Positions 5,811 to 62,514 of a stretch of 64,000 nucleotides of DNA are shown in pieces. Source of the stretch: Apostichopus japonicus (taxonomy: Eukaryota > Echinodermata > Holothuroidea > Aspidochirotida > Stichopodidae); NCBI RefSeq assembly GCF_037975245.1, contig NC_092565.1, forward strand, positions 6,502,999-6,566,998, read 5' to 3'. The first letter of the stretch is position 1. The number at the start of each line of letters is the position of its first letter. The translations under genes were made by a program, and so were the position numbers. The notes under the pieces are model-generated. The model was not told the origin of the DNA. It searched no databases and was given only the letters and a program-made list of their open reading frames with translations.

Positions 5811-6337
5811 ATGGATGCAACACCAAGGGCTTCCAAACTTCCAAGGCCAAGTTCACAAGCAAGGAGCTCACTTCAAGACCAAGAAGGAAGACAAAGTGCC
5901 TTGCCTTCCACGAAAAGTGGAGATACCTCAAAGAACCAAAAGACTTCTCCGTTAGTCCAACAACTGAGAGGTGAAATAAGGCAACTGAAAAGACAAATAG
6001 ACGAAGAGGCTTCTCATGTCAAAAATTTGAAACGTGAAAAAATTAAGGATGTTCAGAAGGCCAGAGACGAGGAGCAGGGAAAAACGAAGAATGCATTATC
6101 CGATCTCAGATACAGACTGAGCCAAGAGAAGGACCGAGAATTAGAAAGCCTTAAGGCTCAGTTGGCAAAGCAGCATGGTGCTGAGATAAGTAAGATTCTA
6201 AGAGAGAAAGATGCTTTTACAAAGGCCAACAAAGAGGCGAGTAAAGAGAGGAGTGCTTTCATCCAACGGTTGCAGGAGGATGCTCGTACTGAGGTCCGGG
6301 AGGAAATGAAAATGCTCTTTTCTTCCGAGAAAACAAG
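5811..6337 (+). CDS. Exon 1: start codon and JAKMIP-like coiled coil
   Basis: Residues 1-175 plus two bases (donor phase 2). The exon itself probably begins at 5686 after a pyrimidine tract and AG, giving a 125-base 5' UTR part. The ATG at 5811 has a good Kozak context and an in-frame TAG 18 bases upstream (5793-5795), which fixes the start. After a short Ser/Pro-rich head the sequence becomes charged coiled coil. The phrase [20 protein letters not shown] and the following QH motif line up with the JAKMIP N-terminal coil. Donor is AAG/GTGAGA. Confidence 0.85.
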
Positions 6338-9300
6338 GTGAGAAATTTTAGCAAATATATATGTTCCTATTGCAAATACTGTCATTGGAGCTACTTAAGT
6401 CTGAAAAAGTAGCTTAATGGTTGGACAAAAATTTCTAGTTTTGTTCTCATTTTCAAGATGTTAATCAAACTACAAATTGCCTAGAATCAAAATCAAATTT
6501 AGCAAAAACAAAAAGGCAAAAGGCTCTGAGGTTTAGATTCTAAACGTAAAACCTAAAGAGAACTACTGGGAATAGTAAAGTAACTTGTGGTTTGACAAGC
6601 TCGCAGATATACTTTAAAGTTGATAGATGTTTTCCCTAATACATGGTACAGTATTTTGCAATAAATAATTTGTTATTTAATAATAAAAGAATGAATAATA
6701 AAGAATGAATGAAGAAATACTGAAGAATGAAAGAAACCTGAAAAAAAAGTCAGTTGCTACTTTTACATATATCCATTCTTATCATTGTTCTTGTTTTGTT
6801 TTATTTTTCTTAAGATTTAAGCAAGAAATTGAAGAGTTGAACAAAAACAGAAAGAGACTTGAGGAAGATTTAGCCAAGGAAAGGTTAGCCAGTCGTGGTA
6901 GTTCTGAAGACTTGAGACGATTGAATGATGAACATCAAAGAGAAATGGAACAACTTAGGAAAGAAGCCAGAAAGGATATTATCATCCTGGTAATTTCATT
7001 TCTTTTTTTGTGTGTGTTAATTTTGATTGTTGGTAAAATTTCAAATGCTCTGTGCTTGTTTGTTTTTATTGTGCTGTTTGGTATTGCAGTATCCTCAACT
7101 GGTTTTGAAAAGTTTGCTTTAAAAATTTGATATCAAGGCGGTTAAAACTATTATTGCATTGAGTAGATTTAACTGTGTGGTTACAACAAACATTTAATTT
7201 GGTAAATACTTCTTTGCACTTTACAAAACAATTGTTGCTCAAAGGAAGGTTGAAAATTGCTATAAATGAAACATCAATTATTTTTTTTCAAACACAAAAA
7301 AAAAATTAATTTGAACAATTACGTAGTTATTCCATGCTATTTAAAAGAATGTACTGTTCTAAACAAAGCTTACTTCAAGTTATTAGCATATTGACTGGAA
7401 TGAAATGCATTGTATGGGGAATATGCTTGAGGTGTTCACTGTGAAAATGCTACCCTTCACTAGATAGCTGACTCATTGGCCATCCATGGCACTTTCCGTG
7501 TCAGTCACTTCAAAAACATGCCTCTTTCCTCACAGTTAAACAAATTTCATGAGCTGGTCTTTGATGGTCTGTTAAAGTGGTCTTTTTAAGTTGCCTCAAT
7601 TGCCTTAATTTGTTGCAGCACATGTACTTTCCATTCAAGCACTTCAACATACTAAGCCACAAAAAAAATCCAGATCCTGTTTGAAAGATAAATAAAAAAA
7701 TATGTCTATCCTGTCCCCCCTTTTTGGGTACTTTTTCTGAGATAGGAGACCACTTTGGCAGATTGATATATCAACTCTAAATGGAGTAGACCACCTCAGG
7801 AGGTAGAATCAAGAAATCAATACAGAGGGGGGTTATTGCACCATTACAATCAATAAACACCTTTTGTAGTTTGTTTACACCAAATCAGTGTGAGTAAAAA
7901 TCACTACACACTACAGGAAGGCATCACACAATAGCAATCCCTAAAGTTGTTGTCATGTGATTGTTGTACTTTTGAATGAACACTATATAGCTGTCATCTA
8001 TTGAGTTTATAGTTAATGCTAGACAGTACAGTAAATATGACAACAACTTTCCACTTCTTGTATTTCTGGATTTAGCTTGCTTGAAAGGGAAATTAACTAT
8101 TAAATCTAGATAATCCACTGCTCCAGATTATGGACTCTTACTGTTTCGGAATTAATATTACCGCTCTGGCTCTGATTAAGGATAGAATTCATTGCAAAGA
8201 TCGTAATGGTTTTATTATGCAATGTTTTGATAGCAGTATGGATGTATTGAATATTAAAGAGTCATTTTGAAATCTATTTTGGAATATAGAACAAACTACT
8301 GTAACTGATCTAACAAACTCTGCACTCTTTTTTGATACTGTTGTGTAGCTAGTAATGACATAATCATGACAATAAACTGTTCTTTTTGTGCTAAAATTGT
8401 GGGCCATTCTCATAGCAGAAGGAGTGATTTAATACCAAAAATATTGAATAAGACATAGTAGGCTACAAAGTGAACACTTTCATAATGACTCGGTTCAGTC
8501 ACTGAGATTCAACTGCCAGTGATGAACTAATGACTCAAGGGCCATGGAATAATTTTGCATTCATAGTTTGTGTACATATGGTAGCAGGTTTGAAGGCTCT
8601 GGACTCTCTCTTATTACTGTAAATGCTACATGGCTCCTTGTGTACATAAACTTGCTATACACATCCCATATACTTGTATAGCAATTTGCCAATTTTGCAT
8701 AGCATTACTTTATGCAATACTGGATAAATTATTCCCAGGAGGAGAAGAGGGGGAATATTTGGTAAATGTGTCATTCAATTGGACCCCGCTGCTAAGGGAA
8801 CTGTCCTTGTTTAAGAGAGAGAGAGGGAGAGTGACAGACATTGTGTAGTGGTGCTAACTAGCTAGGCATAGTGACGGTGTAATAATACACACCACAGCAT
8901 AACATGGTACAGAAATGAATTGAAAGGTTAAAACAAGACTCCAGTTAATATTTTGGAGGACTGCTTTGTACATAAACCCAGAATGATGTTTTTCATTTGC
9001 ATTTTTCATGTTAGAATTATGCATGCAAATAGGCTTAAGCTTTTTGCATAACACTAAATTGTCATGATTGCCTGACAACTTACCACGCGATAGTAGCAAG
9101 AACAGGTTGTTAAGACCGTCAAGGTTGAATATATGGTGAGGTTTTTAGATTTTGTATATTTTATTACCGTTTCATGAACGGTGCAGATTGATGAGATAAA
9201 AGCTAAAGATCGAATTGTTGCCGAGTTGGAGAAGGAGCTCGGTCACCAGACGGGGTATGCTCAAACATCGACGATGGAAAAGAGTCCTGCCCTAGATCGG

Positions 9301-12300
9301 CTGAACCTTACCAAACTCAGAGACACCTGGGAAAAGAAGTCATCTCAGAATTTGAACAACTCAAAGAGAAACGCTTCCGGAATTGAGGTACGATAAGTTT
9401 TTTATATGGTTATGATTATTCTGTATAGTGATGAAAGGTGCTGTTTTATAAGCACAATGCATGCCCACATGAAAAAAAGAAAACAAAAATATGAGATGTG
9501 GTTGATATGAGAAGATATTTTATGCCTTCTCAAAGGTAATATATAGCTTAAAATCTGCCTTAGAGTAAAAATTGAGTAATCTGTAGTCAGTTTGTAATTT
9601 TGATGGCTGCTTGAAAATTAATATTACAGTAGTTAACATTGTGGTTATGTAATGAAAGGTAGGGACAGGAATGGAAAGGGGAAGGGTAGGGGGGAGGTGG
9701 AGGGGAGGGAGGCATATGAAGAATGGAATTCTATTCTATGGAATGAATCATCAACTATGGAATCTATGGAATGAATCATCAGTATCATCAGAATCATCAG
9801 TATCATCAACAGAAGTTGTATGATCTATGTGAGCACACTTTGCTGCAGTTACATTCTTCATGTACTGTAAACAAACATACTTAGTCACTGTACTGCCAAG
9901 GTTTGTGTATGTAGTACGTGTATGCAGTATGTTGTTACAACTGACAGTCAAATATTACCAGATGTTTGTACGTAGGATAATACTTGTATATTTGACCTGG
10001 TTGCAACTTAACAACAGTATAAGGTCTGTCAGTTTTCTGTGAAATTCTACTTTTTTTTAACCTCAGCTGCTGTTTCAATGAATTTTGTACATGTACCTTA
10101 TAACCTATTAAGGGGATTTTTTCCTCTCCAAATCTAAAACACATAAATTTTTGCAGGAATTAACACAGGGAAAGAAAGCATTCAAATTACCAAGTGGACC
10201 TGGTATCACCTCTGAAATATTGAACTTGCAAGTTCTGGGTACAACATAGGCCCATTATGATTTAGGCTACGTACACGGTTGCAAACAATGTTTTTTTTTT
10301 CTGTTGTTTTTCTTGTAGTGCAAAAAGAAACAAAGGTTCAGTAATTGTGTTGATAAAACAGAGGTTCTTAGCTGTATTTATGAAATAAAAACCTCTGCGA
10401 GTGTGTCGACAATTTAGAAACAGTTTGGTGACATCTCGGGTATTTCAAATGGGCCATTTTGTTTTGGTTTTTTTTAAACAGCATTTGTATGTGTCACATT
10501 TAAAGCTAAAAAACAGATTTGGAAGAAGCCTCAATTTTGTACCATGTATATAATTAACTAGGGAATGAAAGTTAGTGTTCAAAGTTTGTGTATCAGTTGT
10601 CAACAATCTGAACTTTGTGTCTCTTATAAAATACTATGCTTCCTGTGTACAGTAGAATTGCTTTTACATCTGTGCAAACTGTGCATAGTTATATTGGAAC
10701 ATAGATATATGGGATAATATGGCATAGATATATGTGCATAGATATATGCATAGATCTGCATAGATAGATCTGCATAGATATGCATATGCATAGATATATG
10801 CATAGATATGCATATGCATAGATCATCAACTGTGCATATATATGGATATTTTGGAGTTCGAGTCACTCCAAGATTAATGTATGTCGTCCAGTTACAGACT
10901 TGTTGACAATTGACAATTCATAATCATGGACGTTAAATATGAATCTAAGAGACTGCCTTCCGTCAGCTTGCGGCTTTGATAAGCCAATGATGGCTTCTTT
11001 GCGAGTTCCTGCTCGCAGGAGGATCTAAAATACATAGCAATATCCCCAAATTTGCATACTATTATGCAGGATAAATCGTTCCATATTACCGTATTTGCCT
11101 AGATTTACTTTTAAATTTAGTCTCTTGAGCAGGAATCACAGCCAGTGATCCGTAAAACCATCAGAGTTTCATGTTTCCTTCATGACATTAACCTTTGCAC
11201 TCAATTGGATTTTCCTTCATGTCACTGAAGCACAGCCTCAAATAACAGACATCAGTTTATTGTATTGATTTGAACTGATGACCTTTCAAGATTTGTTTAC
11301 TCTGAATTCTCAAAATACATTTACAAACACCTTATCTCGTTTTCAAGATCAAACATGGATGTCACACAGTCACAGAGATAGTCAAACCCTCTTAATTGTT
11401 TTACTAGTTATGTATAAAAGTCAAAACAAATATTGTCTAGGGTGATAAATTATATACTCCTGGCAGCCTAGAAATATATATTTTTCATTGTTTGTTTGCA
11501 ATTCATTGTGTGAATGCGAACATACTTGTAAGCAATAACATTATAACTCGGTAGTTATTGTGCACTGGACCGCTGAAACACTTGAGCACACGGTAGTATA
11601 TCTGTGCATGAACTGTGTTGAGGAAAGGAATCTTTAGAGATATTTGTCCATTTTAATTTAAAGGCTTGTCTCGTATTATTATATCAGGCTGCTCTCTGTG
11701 TTTTCCTCAACGGTGTAATATTTTACTGTATCTCTTTTCTGGAAGAGATGTGATAAAAGGTAACTATTTTGATGATCAAGGGTATACTAGATATTTTTAT
11801 TCTAATATTCTTAAAGATAAGATACACATTAAATAGAAATAGAAACCTAGATGTTTTTACAGTTATAAATGCTTGGAATCAGATATATCATTGAAGCTTG
11901 TCGGTGGGACGTTATACTCCAAATGACAAAATGTCCAATGTTTATTAACTTCTTGTAAAGAGTAAAGAAATTATTGACTTGTGGTTGGTTCCAACTATAG
12001 ACATCAGAACGATTGGTTTCATGCCCTGCTGACCTACAGTATTTAGTTTTTCTAGTTTGTGAAAATCTGTATTTTAGTGAAATTCTTTGATTGTTACAGT
12101 AGAGTACCATTACCATGTCAAGTGTAATTTTCCATTAATCCATTCTCAATGATTTCTGAAACATTAATTTGCACTGAATATTGCACTGTAATATTCACAT
12201 ATATATCTAGTAAGAATTCCGACTTCTTCTTGTTCCAAATATCCCACCAATCTACCCCCCCCCCACCCCTTTAAAATGAGAAGCTTCCTCGTATTTGCTT

Positions 12301-15300
12301 CCTGACTGCTTTGGATGTCATCTTTGTCACTTAAGTAAATATGCAGAGTATTGTTGGTTTTTGGTTCGTACCACATATATGGAGGATAAGTTACATATTA
12401 AGCACAATAGCAAATACACTATGAAGTAGCTTTTACTGTGTTATTCTTTTACTGACTTGAACGAAATTAATCTAGTATGTTTTAACCAAGAACGTCTTCG
12501 TAATTAGGAAAACAAACCTTAGTTTTAGAGAATGGCTGGTAGAATTGTAATAATTGTACGCAAAATACTGAAAAAAAACCTTGCAATAATTTATTAGTGA
12601 GATTTACTGAAGACGGAAGTTACAGTGGGTACTTTATTTTTCACACCATCAGTGTTAATACCGTTTGTATCCATTCTGTAGTTCCTAAGTTACATCAGAA
12701 ACTAATGACCATAGGATCGTAGGGTTAGTTTGTCAGTCTAGTGTGGTATTTAAATAAACTGTAAGCCTGAGCTAGCTAATGATAAAACACATACATGTAC
12801 AGTTTGTATGTAGTACAGTCAAGTATCCTTTGGCCAAAATTAAACTTCTGTGTGTGATACTGTCCGTCTGATTCATACAATAGCTGTTTAATATGGTCTT
12901 TAATAAATGACAAAATGCCACTCCATTTAAAATCCAAACCATTAACTCCAGCAGTAGCAAGCGGAGATCGTGCAAATATTTTTCAAGTGAGTTCAGTTGT
13001 TATAAGTATTGATTTTGTTCTTAGCATTCTGTCCGTGCGGTCTTGATAGTTTTCTACACGGCTTGGCATGCAGACTTTGCAGTGTAGCACGCAAAGTACG
13101 GCTAATTAAGTCTCGACTGCAAACAATTGGCATATTTAGGTCATGGCCAAGTGGAAGTTAGATGTATACAGGGTGTACACTGTGAATTGCTCTACTTATG
13201 AGTTGTGTCCAACAGCTTGTGAAAGCAATTGTTATTCTGTACATAGGGAAAGAGAAAAATCTGCCAATTTCCACAGTTTGTAAAGTTTCTGTGAAGGATT
13301 GTTAATTTTTAGACCATTTATATTTGTGTGTAAAAATGTTTTTGGCTTTAAATGCAAACAGCTCAAATTTAATAATCAACAATTCCCTTTTCCACTTTTT
13401 TTTATTTTTATAATTATATGCCTACTGGTTCCACTTACACAGTGGACAACTCCACTATAAGACATAATTTGTAAATTTTAGACCTATATACTCATCTCTT
13501 TACATCCTAAGCAGCCTACATAAAATACCGTACTTTACAATCGGGCTCATCTGTTTCTATTATCTAGCATGTATGTCGGCACAGCATGTATGTCGGCATT
13601 AAGATGGGTAAGCCTATTACAGTATAACGTCAGCGAATAATTTATCAAGCATCACAAAAGATGCAACATGGTCACAGTTGCTATGGATACGCTAATATGC
13701 AAAAATCCAAAGATGTACTGTATGTACAATGTTCTTTACAGATCATATACACTATGTAGTCTTTTATAGTACAGAGACAATGTTCAGAGCCTTCAAGACT
13801 GCTGCAAAAGGCACAAATCTGAATGCTAAAATTAATCCTTGATATTAATGTGCATTGAGTTCTTGTAACTGTTTAATGAAGGCATACAGTAATATATATT
13901 GGTGCACTGCCTTTGGTGTGTTTATTGTACTAAGCTGTCCTCTGATTGTGAGACCTTTGAGACTTTAGACCTGGTAGTTTACGCAAGACTTTTGGATGGT
14001 CACTAGAACTCCAGTAGTACTCTTAATGGTTTCTATAGATGCTTCTGTTTATATAAAGCAGTTTTAGAGCATCCGTATAGTGTACTTTTAGTCTAGTTTC
14101 ATCTCATAGGGAATTACTGTATTTCACCTTTTACATTTATTCGTACTAACGGCAGACGTGACGTGCTTTGGTTGGTCGGCAAACACTGAGCATATATGAA
14201 AGTCCTGTGTGCGAAAAACTGAGAAGTCTAAACTACATTGTGTAACAATTTGGCCATTTGAATATGTAGCATATGGCTAATGTGATATATCACATAAATA
14301 ACGATATATTATAATGATATCGTATATGGTACTGCATGCATCATATTGTGACATATTTTCCCTGACCAGAAATGATTTATATCACAACAAATTGTGTGTG
14401 AGTTTTTCGATGGCCCTAAAATTGATTTTATACATCGCACCTCTCTGAGAGTACATGCAGTCATCACTCAAAGTATCAGATATGAGGATATAAGCATTGC
14501 AGTCTATATATGTATATGGAGTATGATTATAAACGTAAAGAGGAACAAAACTTAACCCAAAATGTGTCATCTCTTCATTGCAGAGTTTTTCCCTCTCATC
14601 ATCATCTCTTGAGGACTCAAAGAAATCTGCAAAAGATGTTAGCAGAATAACTGAGAAAGAAGACAACTCACATGCAACTCAGACAAAAAATGTTTCTGCC
14701 AAGAAAAGTTTATCACTAAGGAAAGGTCCCTTGCCAAGAGGTAGTCCCGTACCTTCAGAGAATTCACAGAGCCGACGGTCTTTACCCAAGTTAGGCCCAC
14801 CTTCCCGGGCAAGCACACCGACACGCCAGGTGACGGATTCATTGCAGAGAAGGTTGCAGGAATCCGAAGCTAGCCAAAAGAGATTGGAAAGGAAGTGTAA
14901 AATGTTGGAGGGCGAACTGAATAGATCGGTAAGATTCACCACAAAATTGAATTTGAAAGGTAGTAACCTTTCAAGTTCTGTACAAAAACTTATAAAATGG
15001 TGTGCTAGTCAGCTGATACAGTAGTTAATCCTATTCTACTTGATGACTTCTGCCCAGAATGCTATATGCAATTTAAGCCAGCTAGACCTTGTTGCTGTAC
15101 ACTTTATCTGGTTTGAAAGTTGTTCATATCTGATAAAGCATAAAGGGGAAAAAAATGACCAATTTTTTTTAAGTACTCACTGTTGGTCAAGTGTCACTGG
15201 TTCACCCAAAAATAATACTGTATTTGCCATTTTGTCAATATTGCAACAATGCAAACTCATCCAAAGCCAGCTTAATAAGTTTTAATATGGAAGTATTAAT

Positions 15301-21280: not shown

Positions 21281-21315
<35 letters not shown>

Positions 21316-21377
21316 CTAAATATATATATATATCTATATATATATATCTATATATACATATATCTATATATATAATC

Positions 21378-21408
<31 letters not shown>

Positions 21409-36400: not shown

Positions 36401-37874
36401 TCATAGTAAGGTTGGTTTTTTGCATCCAAGAGCAGTCTACGGTTTTCCCATCTGAAATGAATTTCTAAATTTAAAAGATTCCAAATTGGAGTTAAAAATG
36501 TTTGAATTGGACGTCACCCGATGTGAAAGTTGTAATCTATAAGCCCTTGCTGGCTACTCCCACATTTGTGGTCGCTTAAGTATCATAAACATAACTGCCT
36601 GATTATTATCATGATTATTATATTTGTTAAATGTAACTTGTGGTCAGTGTGATTTGTTACAAAGTAACTCAGAAAAGAACGAAATTGATGGGAAAAGTTC
36701 TAAAACTCATTAGACATATACCCAGTTTTAACAGACAGTTGTGTCAGTGAGGCATAGTACAATAGCTTATGGCCTGTATTTCTGCTGTTTGGCAAATATT
36801 GAACTATTTACTCTCTTTATTTGCACAAAGGGTCACCTGCCTGCACAGCTGTGAATTAAACTGCTTCTGTAAACAAGTTATATACTGCAAAGTACAGTCA
36901 ATTTCAGTTCTTGCAAAGAAACGTTTGATTTGTAATTGAGCTTTTTGTCTTTGTCTGATGACCAGGATCTCGATGAGATCTCGGTTTAGTGTTGTGATGC
37001 ATTCTCTTGTCATGGTTTGTATAGTTAGTGTGAGGTTGACAATATTGCAGAACGACATGTGCTTTCAGAGGTGTTGTCATATGCAGCTTGGCAAATATTT
37101 TCTTTCAAAGTCTTGGTTTTCAGAGAAAGGGTACAGAAAAACACTTTAAATAGAAGGCCTCCTTGTGGCCTACCTTGATTTTTCTTCTGTTTAAAACAAC
37201 TTAGGGTAAACAAGTTATCTTTTTCATTGATAGAGATTTTACAAGGATTCAAAACACACAAACTGTAAATGTATTTCCCAATACTTTATTTGACATCAGT
37301 TTTACAATTATGAATTTTCAATGATGAAGTTTAAAAGTGAGCTTCAGCTTGAATTATTGCAAAGCGCTACTTCAATGTTCCAGCAATTTGCAATCTTTCT
37401 GACGATTTGTTCTTAGGTGGCTCTGCCGACAGCTGACGCTGGATTATGTTTGGATCACAAACTGGTGCAAACGCAGCCTTTGAAGACAGTTACGTCTGAA
37501 ACTCTGAAGTTACAGTTAGTGACTACTGGTGAGTGGATTTATGGTTTCTGTATACTGTTGTCTTCATAATACAAATGATCAATTTAGTGCATGCAAACTT
37601 TGACACTTTTGGAAGCTTTCCTTCACAACATGCATGGACAACCTTAAGGGATTTCCTATTGCGCAAATATTCATACCTTGCACATGGTTAATAATTTTTG
37701 TTATTTTGATCACATTCAAGCCATACCTAAGTTTTCAACATTTTCAAACTGAGCATAGGAAACAAGTAAAATATGGAACAACTTTTGTGATGAAACAGTC
37801 TGTAAGTTAATGTTTGACATGAAATTCCTGTGAATGTGTCACTTGTACAAGTCATTTCTTGCTACAGTTACTTA

Positions 37875-37956
<82 letters not shown>

Positions 37957-46900: not shown

Positions 46901-49900
46901 GCTCTGGTTAGATTCATGCATTTACTTGTCAGTAATACGCTTGTTCTGCAGTGCAACATTCAGTCCTAGCAATGTTTGATCATTGTGTATAATCGCAAAT
47001 TTGTAAGTTATAAATCTTTTACGATTGCCAAAGTATTTCTTCATATATGTTGACGATTACTGGCCTGGTTCACATTTATCGGATGTCTGTTCAAGTGTGT
47101 CAATTGCGGTGTAGTTTAATTTCAATATGCCTGCTTTTGCGCACATTGAACATCCTACAGAAAACTCTTGCATACTAATCAACACACCGCTACAAGGTGT
47201 TACATCTATTCATTGTTTGCATGTTTGCTTTAATTATTGCTAGTAGTTGTAGTAGCCACATAGATTCATTCGAAAAATTTTGATTTAACATGAACGATTT
47301 TAAGAAACGTTATAGATTGAAAGTTGTTAAGTTTTTGTTTGGTAGATGTTTTAACATGAATTAGACATCACACATTAAGACTTGAAAGAACAAATAGGGA
47401 CAGTGCACCATGGAGAAGGATTTGTTTGACTGTATTTCTGCAATGTAGAAATGACAGTGATGACATCATAACTGTAACCGAGTAATCGCAAGAAAAGCGA
47501 TCAATCGACTACAAAAGAAAGAGTCGACTATCAGCACTAGTCTGCAGTCTAATTTTAATGACCACTTATTCCTAGCAGAATCTTCTTCACAGACAGACTA
47601 ATCTAACATAGGACACAAGTTCAGTAACAGTTATATATTTTTTCAATACTGATGGGGTATGATTGGCGATACCGATATGTCTTTTTTTTTCTGAATTGGC
47701 AGCAGGCCCAAGGAACTTCTTACTTTTATTGAATGCAAGTAAATGAATGCAAGTAAAAGACAACAGGTAATCTATCAGGAAATCAGTTCTTAAACTGTTG
47801 ATTTTTTTCTTTGCAGACTCCATCTCCCGTTGCAAGTGATGATACCTTACAGAGACTGGTCCAGTCAGATGCTGACGATAGTATCGATTTCCCTGTCGGA
47901 AGGTCAAAGGTCAGGCACCTTAATCAGCATAGTGTCTCTGCACCACCCTCTCACATCAGACCACCATTAATGAGAACAAGAAATAATGACTTTGGATCAG
48001 CAGACCCACCCTCATCAACGTCCAGTTTGGATCGCGGACATTCTTTGGATACGATGGGGAATTTTTCTCTGCCTTCTGACCCAGTAAGGATCGGTGTGGA
48101 TGAAGGTGGAACCGGAGTCAGTGCAATAAGGACTCCCGGTGGTTCCACTGGGATGAATAATGGACAATTGAATATACCACGTGGTATACCTGGACATGGT
48201 GATACGCCCCGAACTTACCACCAAACAGAGGTTCCTCCTCTTCCTAATGGATTCCCGCCAACCTCTGGTGCAAACATTCCAAGTCAAAATGTGTATAATC
48301 AAAGACCTGTACAGACATCGTTACATTTTATGACCCCGCCAAGGGTTCCTCCAGCTCCTGTGCATCACCTGTCAAATAGCGCCAGTTCCTCTTCCTTGCC
48401 ATCATCTCACATTCGACCATTTAGTGGACCCTCGTGGTCACTACCGGTACCCATAAATCATTCTATACCACCGGACCCACCTTACTCCCTTTCCGTCGAC
48501 AAGAGGGTCGGTAAGACCAGTGCTCTTCTCGTCTGGCAACCTCCACCGTTAGATGATATGACTAGAAATAACGGACAGGAGATCGCCGGTTACAAGATCT
48601 ACGTGAACGGGCAACTCAAACAGCTGGTGACCAGTCCTCGTATGACTAAAGTAAGCACTGTATCGATCACTTGTTCCTTTATTGCAGGGGTGGGCAACCT
48701 TTTTGAATGAATGATCCAGATATAAGGAGTGAAAAATTGACTGGGTCGCACCTAACCGCACCTGTTGATTTCAAACCTTTGATTCAGAGGACTTTCAAGC
48801 AATTGGTGCGTGTACTTAATCTGTATTCAAAAAAACATAATGTCAATACAGTACAGTTGATAATTAATGGGGATAATAGGTTTACCTGCCAGCATCATTA
48901 GTGCGAATAAATTCTGAGAAGCTCGTTTTTTGTGATGATTTAAAATAGATTATTTTTTTCCTTTTTCTTGAGACATCTGACAGGCCGCAAAAAAAATCAA
49001 TGGCGAGCTGCATGTGGCCCGCGGGCAGCAGTAGGTTGCCCATCCCTGCTTTATTCGGTTGCCTTGAAATGATGGTTCATTAAAGCACAAAAAAATAGTT
49101 AAGTTTGACAAACTGTTTGTTTGCCCATTATGGTCATGTCATTGACTACATGTATACTAAACTGTCTACTACCATCAGTCCAACATTGCATGTCTTTACC
49201 ACTTTTCAATGTTTTGGAGAAGTAAACCTTTGAAACATTTCAGGGGCTGCAATTTAAAGTTAATCAGTCAGTTCTCCTCAGATGTAACACAAAGCTCAAT
49301 AGGATCAAAGGTAGACATTATGGTCACATATGACTTAAAATTTTAAGGAAAAATGATGTTGAGTGGCTATCCAAGGTGTTCTGTTGTTCATATGAAATTG
49401 AAAGAGAAAACAAAAAACGATGTTTTAGTTGGTTAATTAGGAATTAAATTAAATAATGTTTAAGGAAGTGACATATTAGTCCTGTGCTGAGGAGCTGATG
49501 TCATCAATCAATTAGGTGCTATTGTTTACAGGTTTTGTGGCTTATCATATGACCTGATTACAAATGTATTGACCAATTAATCAAAGATAGTAACTGTTGT
49601 TTGGATTTTCTCTGTTTATTATTAAGATGGAATTCTTTCAAAGATTTTGTATGCATGGTTAGTTTAAGGTTAGTAAACAGTTTCAGTCCAAAAATTTGCC
49701 TCCATGGAGCACATTCCAGACACGTTATATATTTATGAAGGTGATAACTATTTAGAGATGGATAGAAAGGGATATTCCAGTGGCAGGGGTAACAAAAATT
49801 TTGAAGAGAAAAATATTCCACATTTTTAGGAGGTGAAAAATCTTCTGTAAATAAAATGATTGACATATTAGAAAGCAAAGACATTTTGTATTTACTACTA

Positions 49901-52900
49901 TGCTCTTGCCAGATGCAATTTCAAAATATCACCAAAAATTAAAATATTCATTTCATTGTAATACAAATTGCTATGAGGATGTGGTTTTGACCTTAAGATG
50001 CAGAAAGTCTTCATGCAATTTTTGCAAATCCATTTAGCTTCAAGCTACCAGAAGAACCTTGTAAACCTGGATCAAAACTTCATTCTTTTTTTGCCATCAT
50101 TACTCCACCTCAGGCACTTGTGACAAATTTGAATCTCAAGGTGATCCGAACGTTTGGCATTCAGACGGTTTCTCTCGATGGAAATGCCTCACCTGTGAGA
50201 CAGGTGAGCTTTACGTTACCACAGAGTGACGTGTCGGTATCGGGTATGTCAGATTCCAGCCTGAGTGATTCTGCCAGGGAACCTTCCACGGAGGCCTCCT
50301 CCTCTATGGCTGGGGAAAGATCAAAACAAAGAATGGTAAGTTCTGGTCCAGGGGCCATTGGGGAAGGGTTGTGATGGGAGGGGTGATGTTGTTACAGGAT
50401 TTTGAAGTTCCGTTATATCTATGGTTCATAACAAATCCAAGGGCAAGAAGTGAGGTAATGTTATGAATTCATTATGATTGAGAATTGACAGTTATGGGGA
50501 AAGTTATCTCATAATTATCCCGATTCCAAGGACTCTTTCTGTTTATAGATGATTTTAGTAGTGCATTATGGGTTGTAGCACACAAAGACAATAATATCGA
50601 AATGTACAATCCCAAATTAATTTTAATTATTTTTTGATCAAACTTAGAGATTATTCCCGCCCAACGACTAAGGATTGTTGGTTATGTATGTATGGAATCA
50701 GCAGTGAATTATTTGATACAGGGACGATTGTGCAATGATGGCATCGCATTTCGGCCCGGATTGTCGATCAAACCCCGATAATCGACCAGATGTTATCGCA
50801 AGTGTTAGATTCCAGTCAGAGGACTTCAATCATCAGTTAATGCCAAACCCGAGCCACTCATTTTGACTATCTTTTTCCTCTTTCAGTTCATGGCTGTGTA
50901 TTCGTACAATCCAATGGAGCATTCACCCAATGAAACTCCAGAGAAGGAGCTGAGTTTCAAGGAAGGGGATATGATTCGAGTTCAGGGCCATATGAGAAAA
51001 GATGGATTTTATCATGGATCAGTAAGTAATATAGCGTAAAAACATCAACTTTAAACATTCAGATGTAAAGATTACGATAGATTTCTGATATAATTGGGCC
51101 ATTAGGGAAACCCAACCCCCTCCCCCTTCTCTTTCTTTTTTTGTCAATTTTTACTTTCTAATACACGGAAATGGTTACTCAGTTTTCACCAGGTTCAAAT
51201 GACAACATTTATAGTCTAATACAGCACATCAGCTGTAAGGGGAATCAATGTCTTAGATTTGAAACTTCTCTTGTGATATAAACATTCCCTTGTGACATTT
51301 ACTTGTAAAGTCTCAGGCCTAGATTTCTGGTTCACAAGTCACGCTTACTGCAGACTGGACGTGATCCAAGTTGACACGCCAAAATGACTTGATAACTGCT
51401 GAAAATGTCTCGTCTTTTGTATAACTCCTAAACTAAGTCGACTTGGAAGCTACTGAAAATATCTCCACGTGATAACTACTGAATATGACCCGATTACTAC
51501 TGAAAATGACCCGATTACTGGTCAGAATCAATGAAAATGACATGATTCCAGACTCCTGACTTACTAGGTAACTACTGAAAATGTCTTGACCCCATTACTA
51601 CTGAAAATGACCCGACTCAATAACTACTGACTTGACCAGATTACTACTGAAAATGACCCCATTACTGGTCAGAATCAATGAAAATGACATGACTCCTGAC
51701 TTACTAGGTAAACTACCGAAAATGTCTCGACACCATTACTACTGCAAATGAGCCGACTCGATAACTACAGACTTGACCAGATTACTACTGAAAATGACCC
51801 GATGACTGGTCAGAATACCTGAAAATGACATGACCCGATTACACCATTTGCAGAATTCATTTCCAGTGCAGAAATTAATCACAAAATTGAAAGCAAATGT
51901 GGCTTGATAATGTTATATTTAGACTCGATCATGTCAACTTTATCACATAGACCAATACATGATGGTTAGGTTTACTCTCTATGTCTGGGTATATGATAAA
52001 TGCAGGTAGGATAGTTTACAATCCCGTCTGTGTCAATGGCACAAAGGTTTAGTGACCGTCCAACTTCATTGAAGAAGTCTCCATTTCAAGTTCAGGGGAA
52101 AGAAAGGTAAAATTACCCCGTGAATTTTTATATATCTTTGATTATTCTTTCCACAAAATGATGATTGGGATTTACTCTCTATATCTGGTGAAATCAAAGT
52201 ATAAATAGATAGATGTTTAAAGGAGAAATAAACTCTGGGTTTTTGGAGTGTACATGCAGTAGGGGATATTTTTCTGATACCATTTATGAAATTACAAAGC
52301 AAAATATAGTTTCCCTGAATTTTACGCGAATTTTCCAATTATTTTTTTTTTACCAATTTGAACAACGGCCATTTTGTTAATTTGAGATTGAGGGCGCTTC
52401 AAAAGTGACGTAGGCTAGCCTCATCGTAACTTCAAAACAATGAAGCTTTGCATACGAGTTATAGTCTATTCACACTATGTTCGAGCATCTTGCTTCGCTT
52501 ATTTCACCGGTTAAAATGCCTGAATGCCAAGCCTTTGGTTGTGTTAACCGAAGAGAGGAAGAGGGAGCAGAAAAAGGAAAAAGATATTTCGTTATTCCAG
52601 ATGGAATAAAATATCCGGAAAAGAGTGAACTTTCACTGAGGTGTACAGTACCTGTTCGTTATGTTCTCAGCAGCCGTAGGAAAAGGATTCTTCTTCTTGT
52701 ACCTCAAGAAATTTAAAAAACAGAGTTCTAAATGAACTGGCTGCAAAAATATCTGGCAGAATTCAGGTCTGTTGGTCAGACTTTCTCCTGCGTTCAACAA
52801 ACCTTTTTCCGCGAACAATCCATAGCAGCATACTCTCCCCTTGTCGCTTTCCAATGGCGAACAGAGTGCACACAGACACGATTCTTCGCAGTGGCTTGCG

Positions 52901-54082
52901 GAACCGGTATTCGTATCAGCAACGGAATTTGACACAACATCAACAACAGTCGCGGACTGATTCTTTGCACAAACTCCTCCTCTCGATGTCTCAGTTCTTC
53001 CTCTGAATATTCTGGTTCGCAAAGATACGATTCCAATCCAAAGGCTTCCATTTTCTTTTTTGAAGATATTTGCTCGACAGTATATTGCAGTGCAATGATG
53101 GACGTAAGTAACGCTATCGCTAGGACTGAGAACGGTATGCGTGTTGAAAGCAATCTAATTTATACACGTTAAAAATCAAATCCTTGAAAAGATCGCAAAA
53201 TTTATATTTCTACTGATACTCGTTACAATAACAAATTTCACACACTTTTTAAGCATTTTTACAGATCAATAAAGACAAAAGATATTTTTTGATCGATATT
53301 TTATTCATTACTATTGTTGAAAGTACAATTCTAATTATTTTAGGGATTGGCAACGATTTTGTCTTGAAATACGCGATGCGGCTTGCTTTCGTCACGGTAC
53401 ATACGGGAACTGGCTCAATTCAAACAAAATGGCGCGACACATGAACTACATTCAAATCGTTTTTTCACATCAAAGAAGGGATTTTTATGCTTTTCTTTTG
53501 CTTTTACTGATAAGACCATCTGTCAAAACGTAAGAACGGATGCAAAAAAAACTAGGGTTTATTTCTCCTTTAATTTTTTTAAAATTTCTTTGTAGGTCAA
53601 TGGCATAAAAGGTTTAGTACCGTCCAACTTCATCGAAGAAGTCTCCATCTCAAGTTCAGGGAAAAGAAAGGTAACATTTATATCTTTGATTTTTTCTTGC
53701 TTGCTCGGATGTGCTTTTGATATATATAATTTTTTATACGGTAAAGAATTTTTCGAAAAATTAATTCATAAAAGTTCCCGTTGTTTTTAAGAAATGAGCG
53801 ACTTTGTATATAAACATGACCATTAAAATAAATAGACGTACCAGACACAGAATTCATTCCAATCTGTTTTCATAAGGTTTTTTTTTGGAAATAATGAGAT
53901 TCTCACTTGCATATAAACCATTTTGAGGATTAGATGACTAAATCAATCACTTTTTTTTCGTCTGTTTCTAGAAAACAATGAGGGATGTCATCAGAAGGCG
54001 GCCAGATAAGCGTCACGACAAGACAGAGAAAGGGAAATTCCCTTCTAAGGTACATTCCAGGAGTGGCAACCCAAAGGTCTAG
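5811..54082 (+). CDS. Giant coiled-coil protein gene, JAKMIP-like N-terminus and RIMBP-like FN3-SH3 C-terminus (full span, 32 coding exons)
   Basis: The span covers 32 exons, listed separately, that splice with GT-AG introns and a continuous frame into about 4265 residues. Order of parts: JAKMIP-like coiled coil (1-604), further coiled-coil exons (605-721), giant acidic coiled-coil exon (722-2980), coiled-coil exons (2981-3129), proline-rich region (3130-3384), coiled coil (3385-3663), exon with an EF-hand-like loop at 3747-3758, Ser/Pro-rich linker, FN3 (about 4026-4120), SH3 (4160-4224), basic tail. The start ATG has A at -3 and G at +4, and an in-frame TAG lies upstream at 5793-5795. No signal peptide or membrane segment is seen, so a cytoplasmic scaffold is inferred. 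JAKMIPs bind microtubules and RIM-binding proteins link proline-rich partners at secretory or ciliary sites, so a cytoskeletal adaptor is plausible. Extra phase-0 exons could have been missed in the long introns, and the locus could also yield shorter transcripts. Confidence 0.8.
6815..6989 (+). CDS. Exon 2: JAKMIP-like coiled coil
   Basis: Residues 176-234. The acceptor TTTTCTTAAG restores the frame of exon 1 (AG+A gives Arg). The segment is strongly charged helix ([19 protein letters not shown]), and its end ([13 protein letters not shown]) corresponds to the JAKMIP segment just before the conserved DEIKxKDR motif. The donor CTG/GTAATT leaves phase 0. Confidence 0.85.
6990..9186 (+). other. 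Intron 2
   Basis: AT-rich, no repeat family or exon recognised. Small open frames on either strand lack motifs. Confidence 0.7.
9187..9387 (+). CDS. Exon 3: JAKMIP signature [18 protein letters not shown]
   Basis: Residues 235-301. This is the most diagnostic N-terminal block: [18 protein letters not shown] matches the conserved JAKMIP motif of the form DEIKxKDRxxxxLEKELG. The rest is polar and less conserved. Acceptor GTGCAG/ATT and donor GAG/GTACGA, both phase 0. Confidence 0.85.
9678..9712 (+). repeat. G-rich tract, G-quadruplex candidate
   Basis: At least four runs of three or more G separated by 1-7 bases on the transcribed sense strand within intron 3. Confidence 0.6.
10697..10830. 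repeat. ATAGATATGC-type low-complexity repeat
   Basis: Imperfect repeats of ATAGATATATGC and GCATAGATATGC, about 130 bases, within intron 3. Confidence 0.85.
10941..11033 (+). repeat. Interspersed structured repeat, copy 1
   Basis: About 93 bases running from GAATCTAAGAGACTG to GGATCTAAAATAC, nearly identical to 43136-43227. It holds small hairpins: GGCTT-TGAT-AAGCC and TGCGAG-TTCCTG-CTCGCA. The first hairpin of copy 2 (CTGAC-TTCG-GTCAG) is imperfect here. The family is unknown. Confidence 0.8.
14584..14928 (+). CDS. Exon 4: Ser/Arg-rich linker then coiled coil
   Basis: Residues 302-416. The first two thirds are Ser/Pro/Arg-rich and probably disordered (for example [12 protein letters not shown] and [11 protein letters not shown]). 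The last third ([20 protein letters not shown]) is coiled coil. Acceptor TTGCAG/AGT, donor TCG/GTAAGA, phase 0 at both ends. It sits after a 5.2-kb intron, so another small phase-0 exon may have been missed before it. Confidence 0.8.
15480..15683 (+). CDS. Exon 5: basic segment and coiled coil
   Basis: Residues 417-484. A basic stretch ([14 protein letters not shown]) precedes an amphipathic helix ([20 protein letters not shown]). The basic part could contact microtubules or act as a nuclear signal, but neither is shown. Acceptor TTGGCAG/AAG, donor ATG/GTAAAT, phase 0. Confidence 0.8.
16085..16213 (+). CDS. Exon 6: Ser-rich linker
   Basis: Residues 485-527. The RRNSLP motif fits a basophilic kinase or 14-3-3-type site (RxxSxP), which is inference. 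No coil is predicted. Acceptor TTCTTGCAG/GTT, donor AGG/GTAATA, phase 0. Confidence 0.8.
16497..16570. repeat. 25-bp tandem repeat, about three copies
   Basis: ATTGATAAATCTTTSGCA-type units begin at 16501, 16526 and 16551, exactly 25 bases apart, in intron 6. Confidence 0.85.
16802..16909 (+). CDS. Exon 7: Ser-rich linker
   Basis: Residues 528-563, polar ([14 protein letters not shown]), ending in the helical [10 protein letters not shown]. Acceptor TTTTTTACAG/CCA, donor CAG/GTAAGC, phase 0. Confidence 0.8.
17402..17621. repeat. 111-bp tandem repeat, two copies, each with two 40-bp subunits
   Basis: Units start at 17402 and 17513 (CATGAAACTTTTGGCTTT). Within each, AAACAAATATACGTCAATCG recurs 40 bases apart (about 17430 and 17470, then 17541 and 17581), so the array is nested. 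It lies in intron 7 next to the possible Penelope-like remnant. Confidence 0.85.
17802..18050 (+). mobile_element. Possible Penelope-like element remnant with hammerhead-like motif
   Basis: A perfect 15-bp hairpin (17802-17816 with 17820-17834) is followed by a segment ending in CTGAAGAAG...CGAAACGTC at 17981-18002, a motif resembling the hammerhead ribozyme cores described in Penelope-like retroelements. The hairpin core ACACAAAATAGTTTTGT recurs at about 18019, giving direct repeats about 208 bases apart. No reverse transcriptase is present, so this would be a fragment at best. Confidence 0.35.
18824..18946 (+). CDS. Exon 8: JAKMIP C-terminal signature ([11 protein letters not shown])
   Basis: Residues 564-604. 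[16 protein letters not shown] corresponds to the JAKMIP C-terminal motif of the form KDQNELLEFRVLELE. JAKMIP1 is roughly 600 residues long, so in a family member the protein would stop soon after this point. Here the frame continues into further exons. Reading through the donor would add only Val-Trp before a stop, so a short isoform ending here is formally possible. Acceptor ATTTCAG/CTT, donor GAG/GTATGG, phase 0. Confidence 0.85.
19902..19979 (+). CDS. Exon 9: small linker exon
   Basis: Residues 605-630 ([19 protein letters not shown]), probably helical. Acceptor CGTTGCAG/GAT, donor AAG/GTAGAG, phase 0. The function is not recognised. Confidence 0.75.
21276..21426. repeat. (TA)n-rich microsatellite block
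   Basis: Interrupted TATA and TATC repeats ending in CATACATACATA, about 90 bases before exon 10. Confidence 0.9.
21517..21570 (+). CDS. Exon 10: 18-codon mini-exon
   Basis: Residues 631-648 ([18 protein letters not shown]). It follows a (TA)n-rich intron. Acceptor TTTCAAAAG/GAT is only moderately pyrimidine-rich; donor AAG/GTAACA. The exon is symmetric (0-0), so it could be skipped without changing frame. Confidence 0.7.
22174..22350. repeat. 89-bp direct tandem duplication
   Basis: ACATACCTTATGGGTTTGT starts at 22174 and again at 22263. The two copies differ at a few positions. Confidence 0.85.
22667..22738 (+). CDS. Exon 11: small linker exon
   Basis: Residues 649-672 ([20 protein letters not shown]). 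Acceptor ATTCAACAG/ATC, donor ATA/GTAAGT, phase 0. Confidence 0.7.
24121..24267 (+). CDS. Exon 12: coiled coil
   Basis: Residues 673-721, a regular heptad coil ([20 protein letters not shown]) leading into the giant exon. Acceptor TTTTTTTTTTGTAG/AAA, donor AAG/GTACAA, phase 0. Confidence 0.8.
26680..33456 (+). CDS. Exon 13: giant 6777-bp coiled-coil exon (2259 codons)
   Basis: Residues 722-2980, all in one exon, entered from TTTTGGCAG and left at AAG/GTAAGT. The protein is very rich in Glu, Lys and Leu with long heptad stretches. It has breaks: three acidic Ser-rich patches (DNA 26935-27000, 29543-29592 and 30361-30415), which look like casein kinase 2 type targets, and a non-coil linker at about 31585-32270. 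The second half carries at least six copies of a motif of the form [RK]-h-x-ELExSExxLhxK, at about 30721, 30862, 31270, 32302, 32446 and 32779. No enzymatic domain is visible. The length and composition suggest a long rod or tether. Long minus-strand open frames beneath it are coding-strand shadows. Confidence 0.9.
33886..34041 (+). CDS. Exon 14: coiled coil
   Basis: Residues 2981-3032; amphipathic helix ([20 protein letters not shown]). Acceptor ACTGCAG/GAG, donor ATG/GTGAGT, phase 0. Confidence 0.8.
34939..35094 (+). CDS. Exon 15: acidic linker and short helix
   Basis: Residues 3033-3084, acidic ([17 protein letters not shown]). Acceptor TTTGCAG/GTG, donor AAG/GTAACT, phase 0. No family motif is recognised. 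Confidence 0.8.
35896..36030 (+). CDS. Exon 16: coiled coil
   Basis: Residues 3085-3129 ([20 protein letters not shown] and [13 protein letters not shown]). Acceptor TTTGACAG/GAA, donor ACG/GTAAAG, phase 0. Confidence 0.8.
36313..36404 (+). repeat. tRNA-derived SINE head (Ser/Leu type)
   Basis: A perfect A box TGGCCGAGTGG (36320-36330) and B box GGTTCGATTCC (36382-36392) lie about 60 bases apart, as in class II tRNAs with a long variable arm. The T-arm (CTGGG, loop, CCCGG) pairs well, but the acceptor strands do not, so it is not a functional tRNA. It sits in intron 16. The tail length is undetermined. Confidence 0.7.
37417..37528 (+). CDS. Exon 17: linker before the proline-rich region
   Basis: Residues 3130-3166 plus one base. 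The donor (one base after the Thr-Thr codons, then GTGAGT) leaves phase 1, the only phase-1 junction in the model. The reading frame of exon 18 fits only this phase, which supports the join. Acceptor TTCTTAG/GTG. Confidence 0.75.
37877..37957. repeat. (TA)n microsatellite
   Basis: About 80 bases of alternating A and T with one TACA interruption near the end, in intron 17. Confidence 0.95.
38294..38946 (+). CDS. Exon 18: ITLQEL motif, proline-rich region, short coil
   Basis: Residues 3167-3384. It starts with [14 protein letters not shown], a motif echoed in exon 27. It then runs through a Ser/Pro-rich disordered segment with polyproline patches ([13 protein letters not shown] and [12 protein letters not shown]) that could bind SH3, WW or EVH1 domains, although none is an exact PxxPxR. 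It ends in helix ([20 protein letters not shown]). Acceptor TACAG/GTA (phase 1), donor GAG/GTCAGT (phase 0). Codon use is visibly more GC-rich than in the coiled-coil exons. Confidence 0.85.
39579..39674 (+). CDS. Exon 19: coiled coil
   Basis: Residues 3385-3416 ([20 protein letters not shown]). Acceptor CTTGTTAAAG/GCT is weak at -3; donor AAG/GTAAAT; phase 0. Confidence 0.75.
40159..40263 (+). CDS. Exon 20: coiled coil, Lys/Glu-rich
   Basis: Residues 3417-3451 ([20 protein letters not shown]). Acceptor GCAAATTAG/CTG, donor CAG/GTAAAA, phase 0. Confidence 0.8.
40976..41047 (+). CDS. Exon 21: 24-codon coiled-coil exon
   Basis: Residues 3452-3475 ([20 protein letters not shown]). Acceptor TTCATTTAG/TTG, donor AAG/GTATTT, phase 0. 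Confidence 0.75.
41486..41880. repeat. Degenerate tandem repeat, period about 111 bp
   Basis: GSTAGAAACC-type starts at 41486, 41571, 41682 and 41815 share the downstream words TTCTGCATGGTATA and CTTGCAACC. The best pair is 111 bases apart. In intron 21. Confidence 0.7.
42581..42697 (+). CDS. Exon 22: coiled coil
   Basis: Residues 3476-3514 ([20 protein letters not shown]). Acceptor TTCTTCCCTACAG/CTG is strong; donor AAG/GTAAGT; phase 0. Confidence 0.8.
43136..43227 (+). repeat. Interspersed structured repeat, copy 2
   Basis: Second copy of the repeat at 10941-11033, in the same orientation, in intron 22 about 100 bases before exon 23. Hairpins CTGAC-TTCG-GTCAG, GGCTT-TGAT-AAGCC and GCAAG-TTCCTG-CTTGC are all perfect. 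The last carries a compensating base-pair change relative to copy 1 (G-C to A-T). Confidence 0.8.
43324..43434 (+). CDS. Exon 23: coiled coil
   Basis: Residues 3515-3551 ([20 protein letters not shown]). Acceptor TTCTTGGCAG/GAA, donor CAG/GTAAGT, phase 0. Confidence 0.8.
43969..44124 (+). CDS. Exon 24: coiled coil
   Basis: Residues 3552-3603 ([20 protein letters not shown], then [15 protein letters not shown]). Acceptor TTCTTGCCAG/AAT, donor AAG/GTTGGT (weaker at +3 and +4), phase 0. Confidence 0.8.
44655..44777 (+). CDS. Exon 25: coiled coil
   Basis: Residues 3604-3644 ([20 protein letters not shown]). Acceptor TTCAAACAG/ACG, donor CAG/GTCAGA, phase 0. Confidence 0.8.
45420..45476 (+). CDS. 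Exon 26: 19-codon mini-exon
   Basis: Residues 3645-3663 ([19 protein letters not shown]). Acceptor TCGTTTTCAG/TTT, donor AAG/GTAAAA, phase 0. Symmetric, so frame-neutral if skipped. Confidence 0.75.
46151..46582 (+). CDS. Exon 27: helix and EF-hand-like loop
   Basis: Residues 3664-3807. It opens with [20 protein letters not shown] and a helical segment ([20 protein letters not shown]). DNA 46400-46435 encodes [12 protein letters not shown], which fits the 12-residue EF-hand calcium loop: acids at 1, 3 and 5, Gly at 6, Ile at 8, Glu at 12. Only one such loop is seen and the flanking helices are not typical, so calcium binding is unproven. Neither JAKMIP nor RIM-binding proteins are known to me to carry an EF hand. 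Acceptor AATATATCAG/GCC, donor AAG/GTAAGA, phase 0. Confidence 0.85.
46678..47537. mobile_element. Possible non-autonomous DNA transposon with 11-bp terminal inverted repeats
   Basis: GTGCTGATAGT at 46678-46688 is exactly inverted at 47527-47537. Both ends continue with related GATTACTCG-type words in opposite orientation (46697 and 47483 regions). I could not find a matching target-site duplication, so the boundary is tentative. In intron 27. Confidence 0.45.
47817..48650 (+). CDS. Exon 28: Ser/Pro-rich linker and first half of FN3 domain
   Basis: Residues 3808-4085. About 215 residues of Ser/Pro/Gly-rich low-complexity linker ([12 protein letters not shown] and [16 protein letters not shown]) are followed by an FN3 start: [14 protein letters not shown], the core-strand Trp in [10 protein letters not shown], and [15 protein letters not shown]. 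Tyr-Lys-Ile-Tyr-Val-Asn-Gly resembles the C-strand of RIM-binding-protein FN3 repeats. Acceptor CTTTGCAG/ACT, donor AAA/GTAAGC, phase 0. Confidence 0.85.
48685..49048. mobile_element. hAT-type MITE with target-site duplication
   Basis: The ends CAGGGGTGGGCAACCT and AGGTTGCCCATCCCTG form near-perfect terminal inverted repeats of the hAT (Charlie-like) type. They are flanked by 8-bp duplications CTTTATTG (48677-48684) and CTTTATTC (49049-49056), 7 of 8 identical. The interior (364 bp in all) has no transposase. It lies in intron 28, 34 bases after the exon 28 donor. Confidence 0.9.
49057..50886 (+). other. Rest of intron 28, exon 29 surroundings and intron 29
   Basis: AT-rich sequence with no recognised repeat or additional exon apart from exon 29 itself. 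Confidence 0.6.
50114..50335 (+). CDS. Exon 29: second half of FN3 domain, Ser-rich linker
   Basis: Residues 4086-4159. [20 protein letters not shown] completes the FN3 fold (E-F-G strands), matching the ALLENLDL-type segment of RIM-binding proteins. Then comes a Ser-rich linker ([20 protein letters not shown]). FN3 split by a phase-0 intron. Acceptor CACCTCAG/GCA, donor ATG/GTAAGT. Confidence 0.85.
50887..51021 (+). CDS. Exon 30: SH3 domain, first part (RIMBP type)
   Basis: Residues 4160-4204. The segment [16 protein letters not shown] carries the ALYDY-equivalent AVYSY, then [15 protein letters not shown] and DGFYHGS. The insertion NPxxxSPNExPEKEL is characteristic of RIM-binding-protein SH3 domains. 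Acceptor CTTTCAG/TTC, donor TCA/GTAAGT, phase 0. Confidence 0.9.
51430..51850. repeat. Degenerate tandem repeat, period about 141-147 bp, with short sub-repeats
   Basis: ATTACTGGTCAGAATCA starts at 51514 and 51661, with a diverged third start at 51802. Each unit is built from shorter TACTACTGAAAATGACCCGA-like words. In intron 30. Confidence 0.8.
52033..52110 (+). pseudogene. Decayed duplicate of SH3 exon 31
   Basis: From GTCAATGGC onward this matches exon 31 closely (CCGTCCAACTTCAT and GAAGAAGTCTCCAT are shared) and also its donor and about 40 bases of intron (TATATCTTTGATT). It has lost the acceptor AG (TGTGTC instead of TGTAGGTC) and carries small indels that bring a TAG into frame after six codons, so it cannot serve as an exon. 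Confidence 0.85.
52516..52716 (+). pseudogene. THAP-like zinc-finger fragment inside the TTAA element
   Basis: The frame starting [13 protein letters not shown] has the THAP hallmark (Met-Pro-x-Cys-x-Ala-x-Gly-Cys-x-Asn-Arg) and continues to [10 protein letters not shown], but the second Cys-x-x-His half is not visible before the frame ends. Probably a remnant of a transposon-encoded DNA-binding domain. Confidence 0.55.
52633..53075 (-). pseudogene. P2X7-like intracellular cysteine domain fragment, frameshifted
   Basis: One minus-strand frame contains [21 protein letters not shown] second, overlapping frame contains [20 protein letters not shown] and [18 protein letters not shown]. Together they follow the pattern of the P2X7-type cytoplasmic zinc domain seen in many invertebrate proteins (CxCxxC, CC, then a hydrophobic Cys-Leu segment). 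At least one frameshift separates the two parts, near position 53000. The assignment is by eye. Confidence 0.45.
53596..53670 (+). CDS. Exon 31: SH3 domain, last part ([11 protein letters not shown])
   Basis: Residues 4205-4229. [16 protein letters not shown] supplies the 3-10 helix and final strand of the SH3 fold and matches the GLVPSNFxEEV ending of RIM-binding proteins. The acceptor TTTGTAG/GTC starts 26 bases after the 3' end of an inserted TTAA element, and a decayed duplicate of the exon lies about 1.5 kb upstream. Donor AAG/GTAACA, phase 0. Confidence 0.9.
53972..54082 (+). CDS. Exon 32: basic C-terminal tail and stop
   Basis: Residues 4230-4265, basic ([20 protein letters not shown]), then stop TAG at 54080-54082. 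A potential donor AAG/GTACAT at 54049 would allow continuation to a downstream exon instead, but no following exon is recognised. RIM-binding proteins also end shortly after the last SH3. Acceptor TCTGTTTCTAG/AAA. Confidence 0.65.
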   Translation, partial: KTMRDVIRRRPDKRHDKTEKGKFPSKVHSRSGNPKV

Positions 54083-61436: not shown

Positions 61437-61474
61437 CAGAGGAACAATAGAAAACGGAAAAACTGACAACACTG

Positions 61475-62420: not shown

Positions 62421-62514
62421 TCAAGACCTCACCAGAGCCTTTTACTTTTCTGTTCTTTGGAGCTGGTGGAAGTATAAAGGTAAGAAACGAAGGTTATTTC
62501 ATTGGGAACCAAAA

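Follow-up and report, generated by a model that had tools for sequence, protein, structure and literature searches.

A predicted giant gene of Apostichopus japonicus with a JAKMIP-like front, a putative DUF4527 segment and an FN3-SH3 tail of RIM-BP type

Here, we describe a chain of 32 forward-strand exons that runs from 5811 to 54082 (Table 1) in a 64,000-nt window, the whole stretch of DNA analysed, from contig NC_092565.1 of the holothurian Apostichopus japonicus. The chain is, as a predicted gene model, one open gene of 12798 nt and 4265 codons, with its sole stop at the end, GT-AG borders at all 31 joins and phase 0 in 29 of the 31 introns. A preliminary description of this DNA had read 32 exons in frame with GT-AG borders and no internal stop, and the same chain was recovered by a Viterbi parse with hand completion.

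The parse drew on generic animal splice scores and on a codon model, the latter trained with the giant exon's long open frame, and was not supplied with the exons read earlier. At an intron penalty of -14 it returned 30 exons ending at 52609, and at -18 it returned 26 exons ending at 51039; the end at 54082 was reached only at the loose penalty of -9, a parse that we set aside for its 63 exons, many of them spurious. We retained 28 of the 30 exons of the -14 parse (the acceptor of exon 18 was moved upstream to a better-scoring site), removed two doubtful ones (45189-45251 and 52532-52609) and inserted four by hand (exons 11, 21, 31 and 32). As these insertions were made with the earlier ends and exon count known, the agreement on exactly 32 exons is not independent. 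The Viterbi score for 8000-56000 was 1335.8 on the forward strand, against 40.7 for the reverse complement and 12.0 for the joined introns, a comparison that favours the forward strand since the codon model was trained on the giant exon of the same gene. Of the 31 non-giant exons, 21 outscored all 2000 intron stretches in a leave-one-out codon test. The remaining ten were matched by some of these null stretches (counts per 2000: exon 6, 3; exon 9, 41; exon 10, 31; exon 11, 53; exon 17, 28; exon 21, 50; exon 26, 11; exon 30, 14; exon 31, 114; exon 32, 316), with exon 32 having the worst coding signal and exon 31 the next worst. Exon 31 is supported despite this weak signal because it completes a RIM-BP-like SH3.

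Table 1. Exons of the predicted gene and one related copy (window positions).
Feature	Position	Strand	Content and basis
Exon 1	5811..6337	+	ATG start; JAKMIP-like from aa ~50; Viterbi parse and JAKMIP alignment
Exon 2	6815..6989	+	JAKMIP-like; Viterbi parse and JAKMIP alignment
Exon 3	9187..9387	+	JAKMIP landmark DEIKAKDR...LEKELG; Viterbi parse and JAKMIP alignment
Exon 4	14584..14928	+	Linker; Viterbi parse, codon test
Exon 5	15480..15683	+	Linker; Viterbi parse, codon test
Exon 6	16085..16213	+	Linker; Viterbi parse, codon test
Exon 7	16802..16909	+	JAKMIP_CC3 match begins; Viterbi parse, Pfam
Exon 8	18824..18946	+	QNELLEF, JAKMIP_CC3 match; Pfam and genome profile search
Exon 9	19902..19979	+	Bridge, weak coding signal; Viterbi parse, codon test
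Exon 10	21517..21570	+	Bridge, weak coding signal; Viterbi parse, codon test
Exon 11	22667..22738	+	Bridge, weak coding signal; hand-added
Exon 12	24121..24267	+	Bridge, coiled coil; Viterbi parse, codon test
Exon 13	26680..33456	+	Giant coiled-coil exon, 2259 residues, first Met is codon 85; Viterbi parse
Exon 14	33886..34041	+	Viterbi parse, codon test
Exon 15	34939..35094	+	Viterbi parse, codon test
Exon 16	35896..36030	+	Viterbi parse, codon test
Exon 17	37417..37528	+	Weak coding signal; Viterbi parse, codon test
Exon 18	38294..38946	+	Proline-rich, then coiled coil begins; acceptor 38294 (-14 parse: 38318)
Exon 19	39579..39674	+	Coiled coil; Viterbi parse, codon test
Exon 20	40159..40263	+	Coiled coil; Viterbi parse, codon test
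Exon 21	40976..41047	+	Coiled coil, weak coding signal; hand-added
Exon 22	42581..42697	+	Coiled coil; Viterbi parse, codon test
Exon 23	43324..43434	+	Coiled coil; Viterbi parse, codon test
Exon 24	43969..44124	+	Coiled coil; Viterbi parse, codon test
Exon 25	44655..44777	+	Coiled coil, DUF4527 match begins; Viterbi parse, Pfam
Exon 26	45420..45476	+	DUF4527 match (AELSVAPLK); Viterbi parse, Pfam
Exon 27	46151..46582	+	DUF4527 match ends (AKVAYLLKQ), then linker; Viterbi parse, Pfam
Exon 28	47817..48650	+	Linker of low complexity, then FN3 (Ig_RIMBP2), first part; Viterbi parse, Pfam, PDB
Exon 29	50114..50335	+	Second part of FN3; Viterbi parse, Pfam, PDB
Exon 30	50887..51021	+	First part of SH3, SPNE; Viterbi parse, Pfam, PDB
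Exon 31	53596..53670	+	End of SH3, 11-residue motif; hand-added, PDB match
Exon 32	53972..54082	+	Basic C-terminal tail and stop, weak coding signal; hand-added
Decayed copy of exon 31	52032..52106	+	Indels; outside model; 77/84 aligned positions identical to 53596-53670

The front of the predicted protein (residues ~50-300) is JAKMIP-like and appears homologous to the N-terminal coiled-coil region of that family. Residues 50-271 align with JAKMIP1 (E 1e-25, 33% identity over 223) and residues 52-299 with JAKMIP2 (E 5e-30, 32% identity over 249), both reference sequences being reconstructions in place of database entries, and these alignments span the exon 1/2 and 2/3 junctions. As a control, the giant exon and C-block gave a best E of 0.11 against the same reconstructed sequences; charged residues make up 40% of the giant exon vs 43% of the front. 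Among 177635 PDB sequences, the front matched nothing better than E 0.035 (a spectrin), and a Pfam match to C_Hendra (4.5e-4 and 1.1e-4), which lies below its cut-off, was taken as a coiled-coil chance hit. No second JAKMIP locus was found when the front was used to query the genome (none below E 1.5, 30 candidates scored).

The JAKMIP motifs pointed out in the preliminary description lie where it had placed them, DEIKAKDR in exon 3 and QNELLEF in exon 8, at residue 584 of the model. With no reconstructed sequence involved, the top Pfam match of exons 7-8 is JAKMIP_CC3 (E 1.4e-5, profile positions 150-193 of 200). This query piece, like that from exons 25-27 discussed below, was cut around the motif or match after the whole-block scan, which biases the result in its favour; on the joined N-block, JAKMIP_CC3 was not reported at E<=1. 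Run against the 671.6-Mb genome, the JAKMIP_CC3 profile listed exon 8 as its sole match at E<=10 (E 1.16, 2 candidates scored), and among 14 control genomes it also matched in one, that of a bacterium. Profile searches, a check that the preliminary description had suggested, matched FN3 and SH3 in the tail, while JAKMIP_CC3 reached 25.4 bits, under its cut-off of 30.2.

The front of the JAKMIP block therefore stands as described earlier, whereas its being complete is not supported: most of the stretch between residues ~50-300 and the QNELLEF region has no JAKMIP match, and the C-terminal third is weak at best. That third aligns with the model at E 0.004 (reconstructed sequence), in an alignment that includes and is partly carried by QNELLEF. 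By Smith-Waterman comparison, the C-terminal JAKMIP region with the motif scores 105, which equals the highest score among 129 giant-exon windows and is reached by 1 of 1000 shuffles; past the motif the score is 60, and 76 of 132 giant-exon windows as well as 103 of 1000 shuffles score at least as high. As resemblance past QNELLEF is no better than that of giant-exon windows, "complete JAKMIP" is too strong, and we dropped downstream homology as evidence. Vertebrate JAKMIPs have ~600-800 residues. The predicted protein shares with JAKMIP1/2/3 (Marlin-1, NECC1, NECC2) about one third identity over 223-249 front residues, including DEIKxKDR...LEKEL (by the reconstructed sequences), and the QNELLEF end of JAKMIP_CC3; unlike them, it extends some 3600 residues further, and the middle of the JAKMIP block and the JAK/GABAB-binding third are not recognisable in it.

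At the other end of the chain, the FN3 and SH3 are of the RIM-BP type by sequence. The FN3 matches Pfam Ig_RIMBP2 (2.9e-14) and the SH3 matches SH3_2 (5.5e-10); RIM-BPs take the first five places among the PDB matches of the SH3, headed by human RIM-BP2 (2csi, 7.6e-20), and the first two among those of the FN3 (2.2e-6 and 9.5e-6). The RIM-BP motifs that had been reported in the tail, SPNE and an 11-residue SH3 ending, were found in exons 30 and 31, respectively. With the RIM-BP family (RIMBP2, TSPOAP1, RIMBP3, Drosophila RIM-BP) the tail has in common the Ig_RIMBP2-type FN3 and an SH3 with an SPN insertion and GLVPSNF; it differs in having one FN3 and one SH3 behind a giant coiled coil. RIM-BPs carry three SH3 and two to three FN3 domains (PMC7565545), a count that the model does not reach (one of each, with the N- and C-blocks scanned at E<=1 and the giant exon at E<=10). 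The predicted gene is thus neither a RIM-BP, by domain count, nor simply a JAKMIP.

Ahead of the FN3 lies a third predicted landmark, overlooked in the preliminary description: a short match to Pfam DUF4527. The whole C-block matches this profile at E 2.8e-5 (24.1 bits, under the cut-off of 29), and the piece from exons 25-27, cut out after that match, reaches 29.8 bits, just over the cut-off, across 35 of the 277 profile positions. The giant exon has neither DUF4527 nor JAKMIP_CC3 at E<=10. An exon-by-exon genome search would miss the match in the window, since it spans two exon junctions; the sole DUF4527 match listed genome-wide (contig C22, 15.3 bits) falls in a reading frame resembling JmjC by eye and was taken as chance. 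We take DUF4527 to be human C4orf50, which is presumably the next same-strand gene downstream of JAKMIP1 at human 4p16. The likeness to C4orf50 consists of the 35-position match, above the Pfam cut-off on the exon 25-27 piece; the unlikeness is that only part of the profile is matched and that the longer C-block is below the cut-off. A literature search on DUF4527 found no paper. A C4orf50 CpG is given at chr4:5,972,071 (PMC11245434), and a duplication at chr4:5,064,533-8,381,168 (4p16.1) is listed for JAKMIP1 (PMC7042875). As to synteny, the one EVC2_like match on this contig is weak (E 1.56) and lies 13 Mb away, which lends no support.

Both the JAKMIP and the DUF4527 matches fall within one open forward-strand chain. 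If DUF4527 is C4orf50, the DUF4527 segment points to neighbouring genes that were split apart or fused, and if the presumed adjacency holds, the order JAKMIP then DUF4527 matches that of the vertebrate neighbours, so that the simplest reading is a split in vertebrates or a fusion here. We propose that the locus is one gene for a filamentous tether of ~4265 residues, made up of a JAKMIP-type head, a coiled-coil rod, DUF4527 and a RIM-BP-type FN3-SH3 foot, and that it most likely corresponds, in unsplit form, to JAKMIP and C4orf50, which are neighbours in vertebrates (probability about 0.58). At slightly short of an even chance, we tentatively go further: vertebrate JAKMIP and C4orf50 would each be one half of a giant tether gene of their ancestor, the "vertebrate-only" JAKMIP having arisen by its split and the undivided form having been kept here. 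As to the direction of change, we lean towards a split in vertebrates over a fusion of two neighbours in this lineage.

An unlikely alternative, although the likeliest of the rivals, is that the gene model merges two adjacent same-strand genes that are transcribed separately, one JAKMIP-like (exons 1 to 8-12) and one C4orf50-like (giant exon to exon 32). Such an arrangement would match the one presumed for vertebrates, and the codon test places the joining exons 9-11 among the least certain. Introns 8 and 12 each hold four AATAAA/ATTAAA signals, which may occur by chance in AT-rich introns. Against two genes, phase 0 is held across exons 9-13, exon 12 outscores all 2000 null stretches, and read-through ends 2 codons past exon 8 and 13 codons past exon 12. 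In addition, the 6.8-kb exon 13, an open coiled coil (heptad power vs shuffles, z 18), has 84 codons ahead of its first Met that are coding-like, scoring above all 2000 null stretches, and it is therefore probably entered by splicing from upstream.

Less likely again is a fusion confined to this lineage, in which the deuterostome ancestor had a JAKMIP gene beside, but separate from, a C4orf50-type gene, and the two became one here only. The anatomy expected is the same as under a vertebrate split, and nothing speaks directly against it; the 29 of 31 phase-0 introns, spread over all blocks, suit an old uniform gene and are compatible with fusion too.

The fusion of a JAKMIP gene with a RIM-BP gene, as the title of the preliminary description suggests, would fit the RIM-BP-like FN3 and SH3, and it is largely refuted and very improbable given a separate RIM-BP gene on contig C15 and a window tail that has a single FN3 and a single SH3, preceded by the DUF4527 match. 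The separate gene (C15:12.99-13.02 Mb) has parts of SH3-I, two FN3, SH3-II and SH3-III in the usual order. Its FN3-I matches Drosophila RIM-BP (3.1e-20), at E<=0.001 the first exons of its SH3-III and SH3-II have no matches other than RIM-BPs and KIAA1666 (lowest E 2.6e-13 and 2.5e-12, respectively), its FN3-II matches fn3, and its SH3-I part matches SH3_2 weakly. The window tail, used as a query, matches six exons of this gene weakly (E 9.9e-4 to 2.5); the window SH3 is closest to its SH3-III among its SH3s (31/60 identical, exons joined by eye). An intron shared with that SH3-III was considered and dropped, the positions differing by eye. As the genome has its own RIM-BP gene, the tail is not a RIM-BP gene fused on, and it is possible that it derives from a partial RIM-BP duplicate. 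A literature search for RIM-BP together with JAKMIP found no paper. Hence the earlier suggestion of a gene fusion or a later-split ancestral architecture loses the RIM-BP gene as a partner and is refined to the JAKMIP and C4orf50 neighbours, through DUF4527 and its presumed identity.

If the locus is one undivided tether gene, what might its product do? By analogy with JAKMIP1, the JAKMIP-like head would bind microtubules and kinesin-1. JAKMIP1 binds microtubules and kinesin-I through its N-terminus, and GABAB1 and JAKs through its C-terminal 200 residues (PMC2685396); we propose a microtubule- or kinesin-bound head and not JAK/GABAB1 binding, since only the N-terminal part of JAKMIP1 is clearly retained here. 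The coiled-coil rod would act as a spacer, which if wholly helical could measure up to ~335 nm (2259 x 0.1485 nm), and the SH3 foot may, as RIM-BP SH3s do, dock on a partner with a proline motif, located at a membrane or an active zone. Crude scans of the model for an RxxPxxP motif and a membrane span found none. The whole protein could hold cargo or membrane away from microtubules, in the manner of a golgin or an active-zone tether.

Our analysis suggests that genes now separate in vertebrates may once have been a single gene. JAKMIP is listed in a 2016 survey among families with vertebrate members only, in a neighbourhood with the DPYS and STK32 families (PMC4906994). If the proposal is true, the origin of the JAKMIP family would lie outside vertebrates, and the presumed JAKMIP1-C4orf50 adjacency would be explained as a gene split. 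It would also suggest that C4orf50 is the end by which a former microtubule tether docked, and RIM-BP-type SH3 modules would serve outside RIM-BPs.

Downstream of the gene, the window holds a ~916-bp unit repeated in tandem ~3.7 times, with inverted repeats of ~105 bp inside the unit (58027-61464), followed by an array of a 153-bp unit (61477-62422; 6.2 copies, 97% matches). In the left flank, a minus-strand frame ~9 kb upstream has a NIT match just under the cut-off, and frames ~31-37 kb upstream of the window look eIF3A-like by eye, a 92-aa piece of them having no Pfam match at 0.001. A 1666-aa open stretch ~77-82 kb upstream of the window appears retroelement-like by eye (its first 160 aa have no Pfam match at 0.001), and a minus-strand tudor-domain frame lies ~99 kb upstream. 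In the right flank, ~160.4-160.8 kb from the window start, there is a transmembrane exon of a neurotransmitter-gated ion channel.
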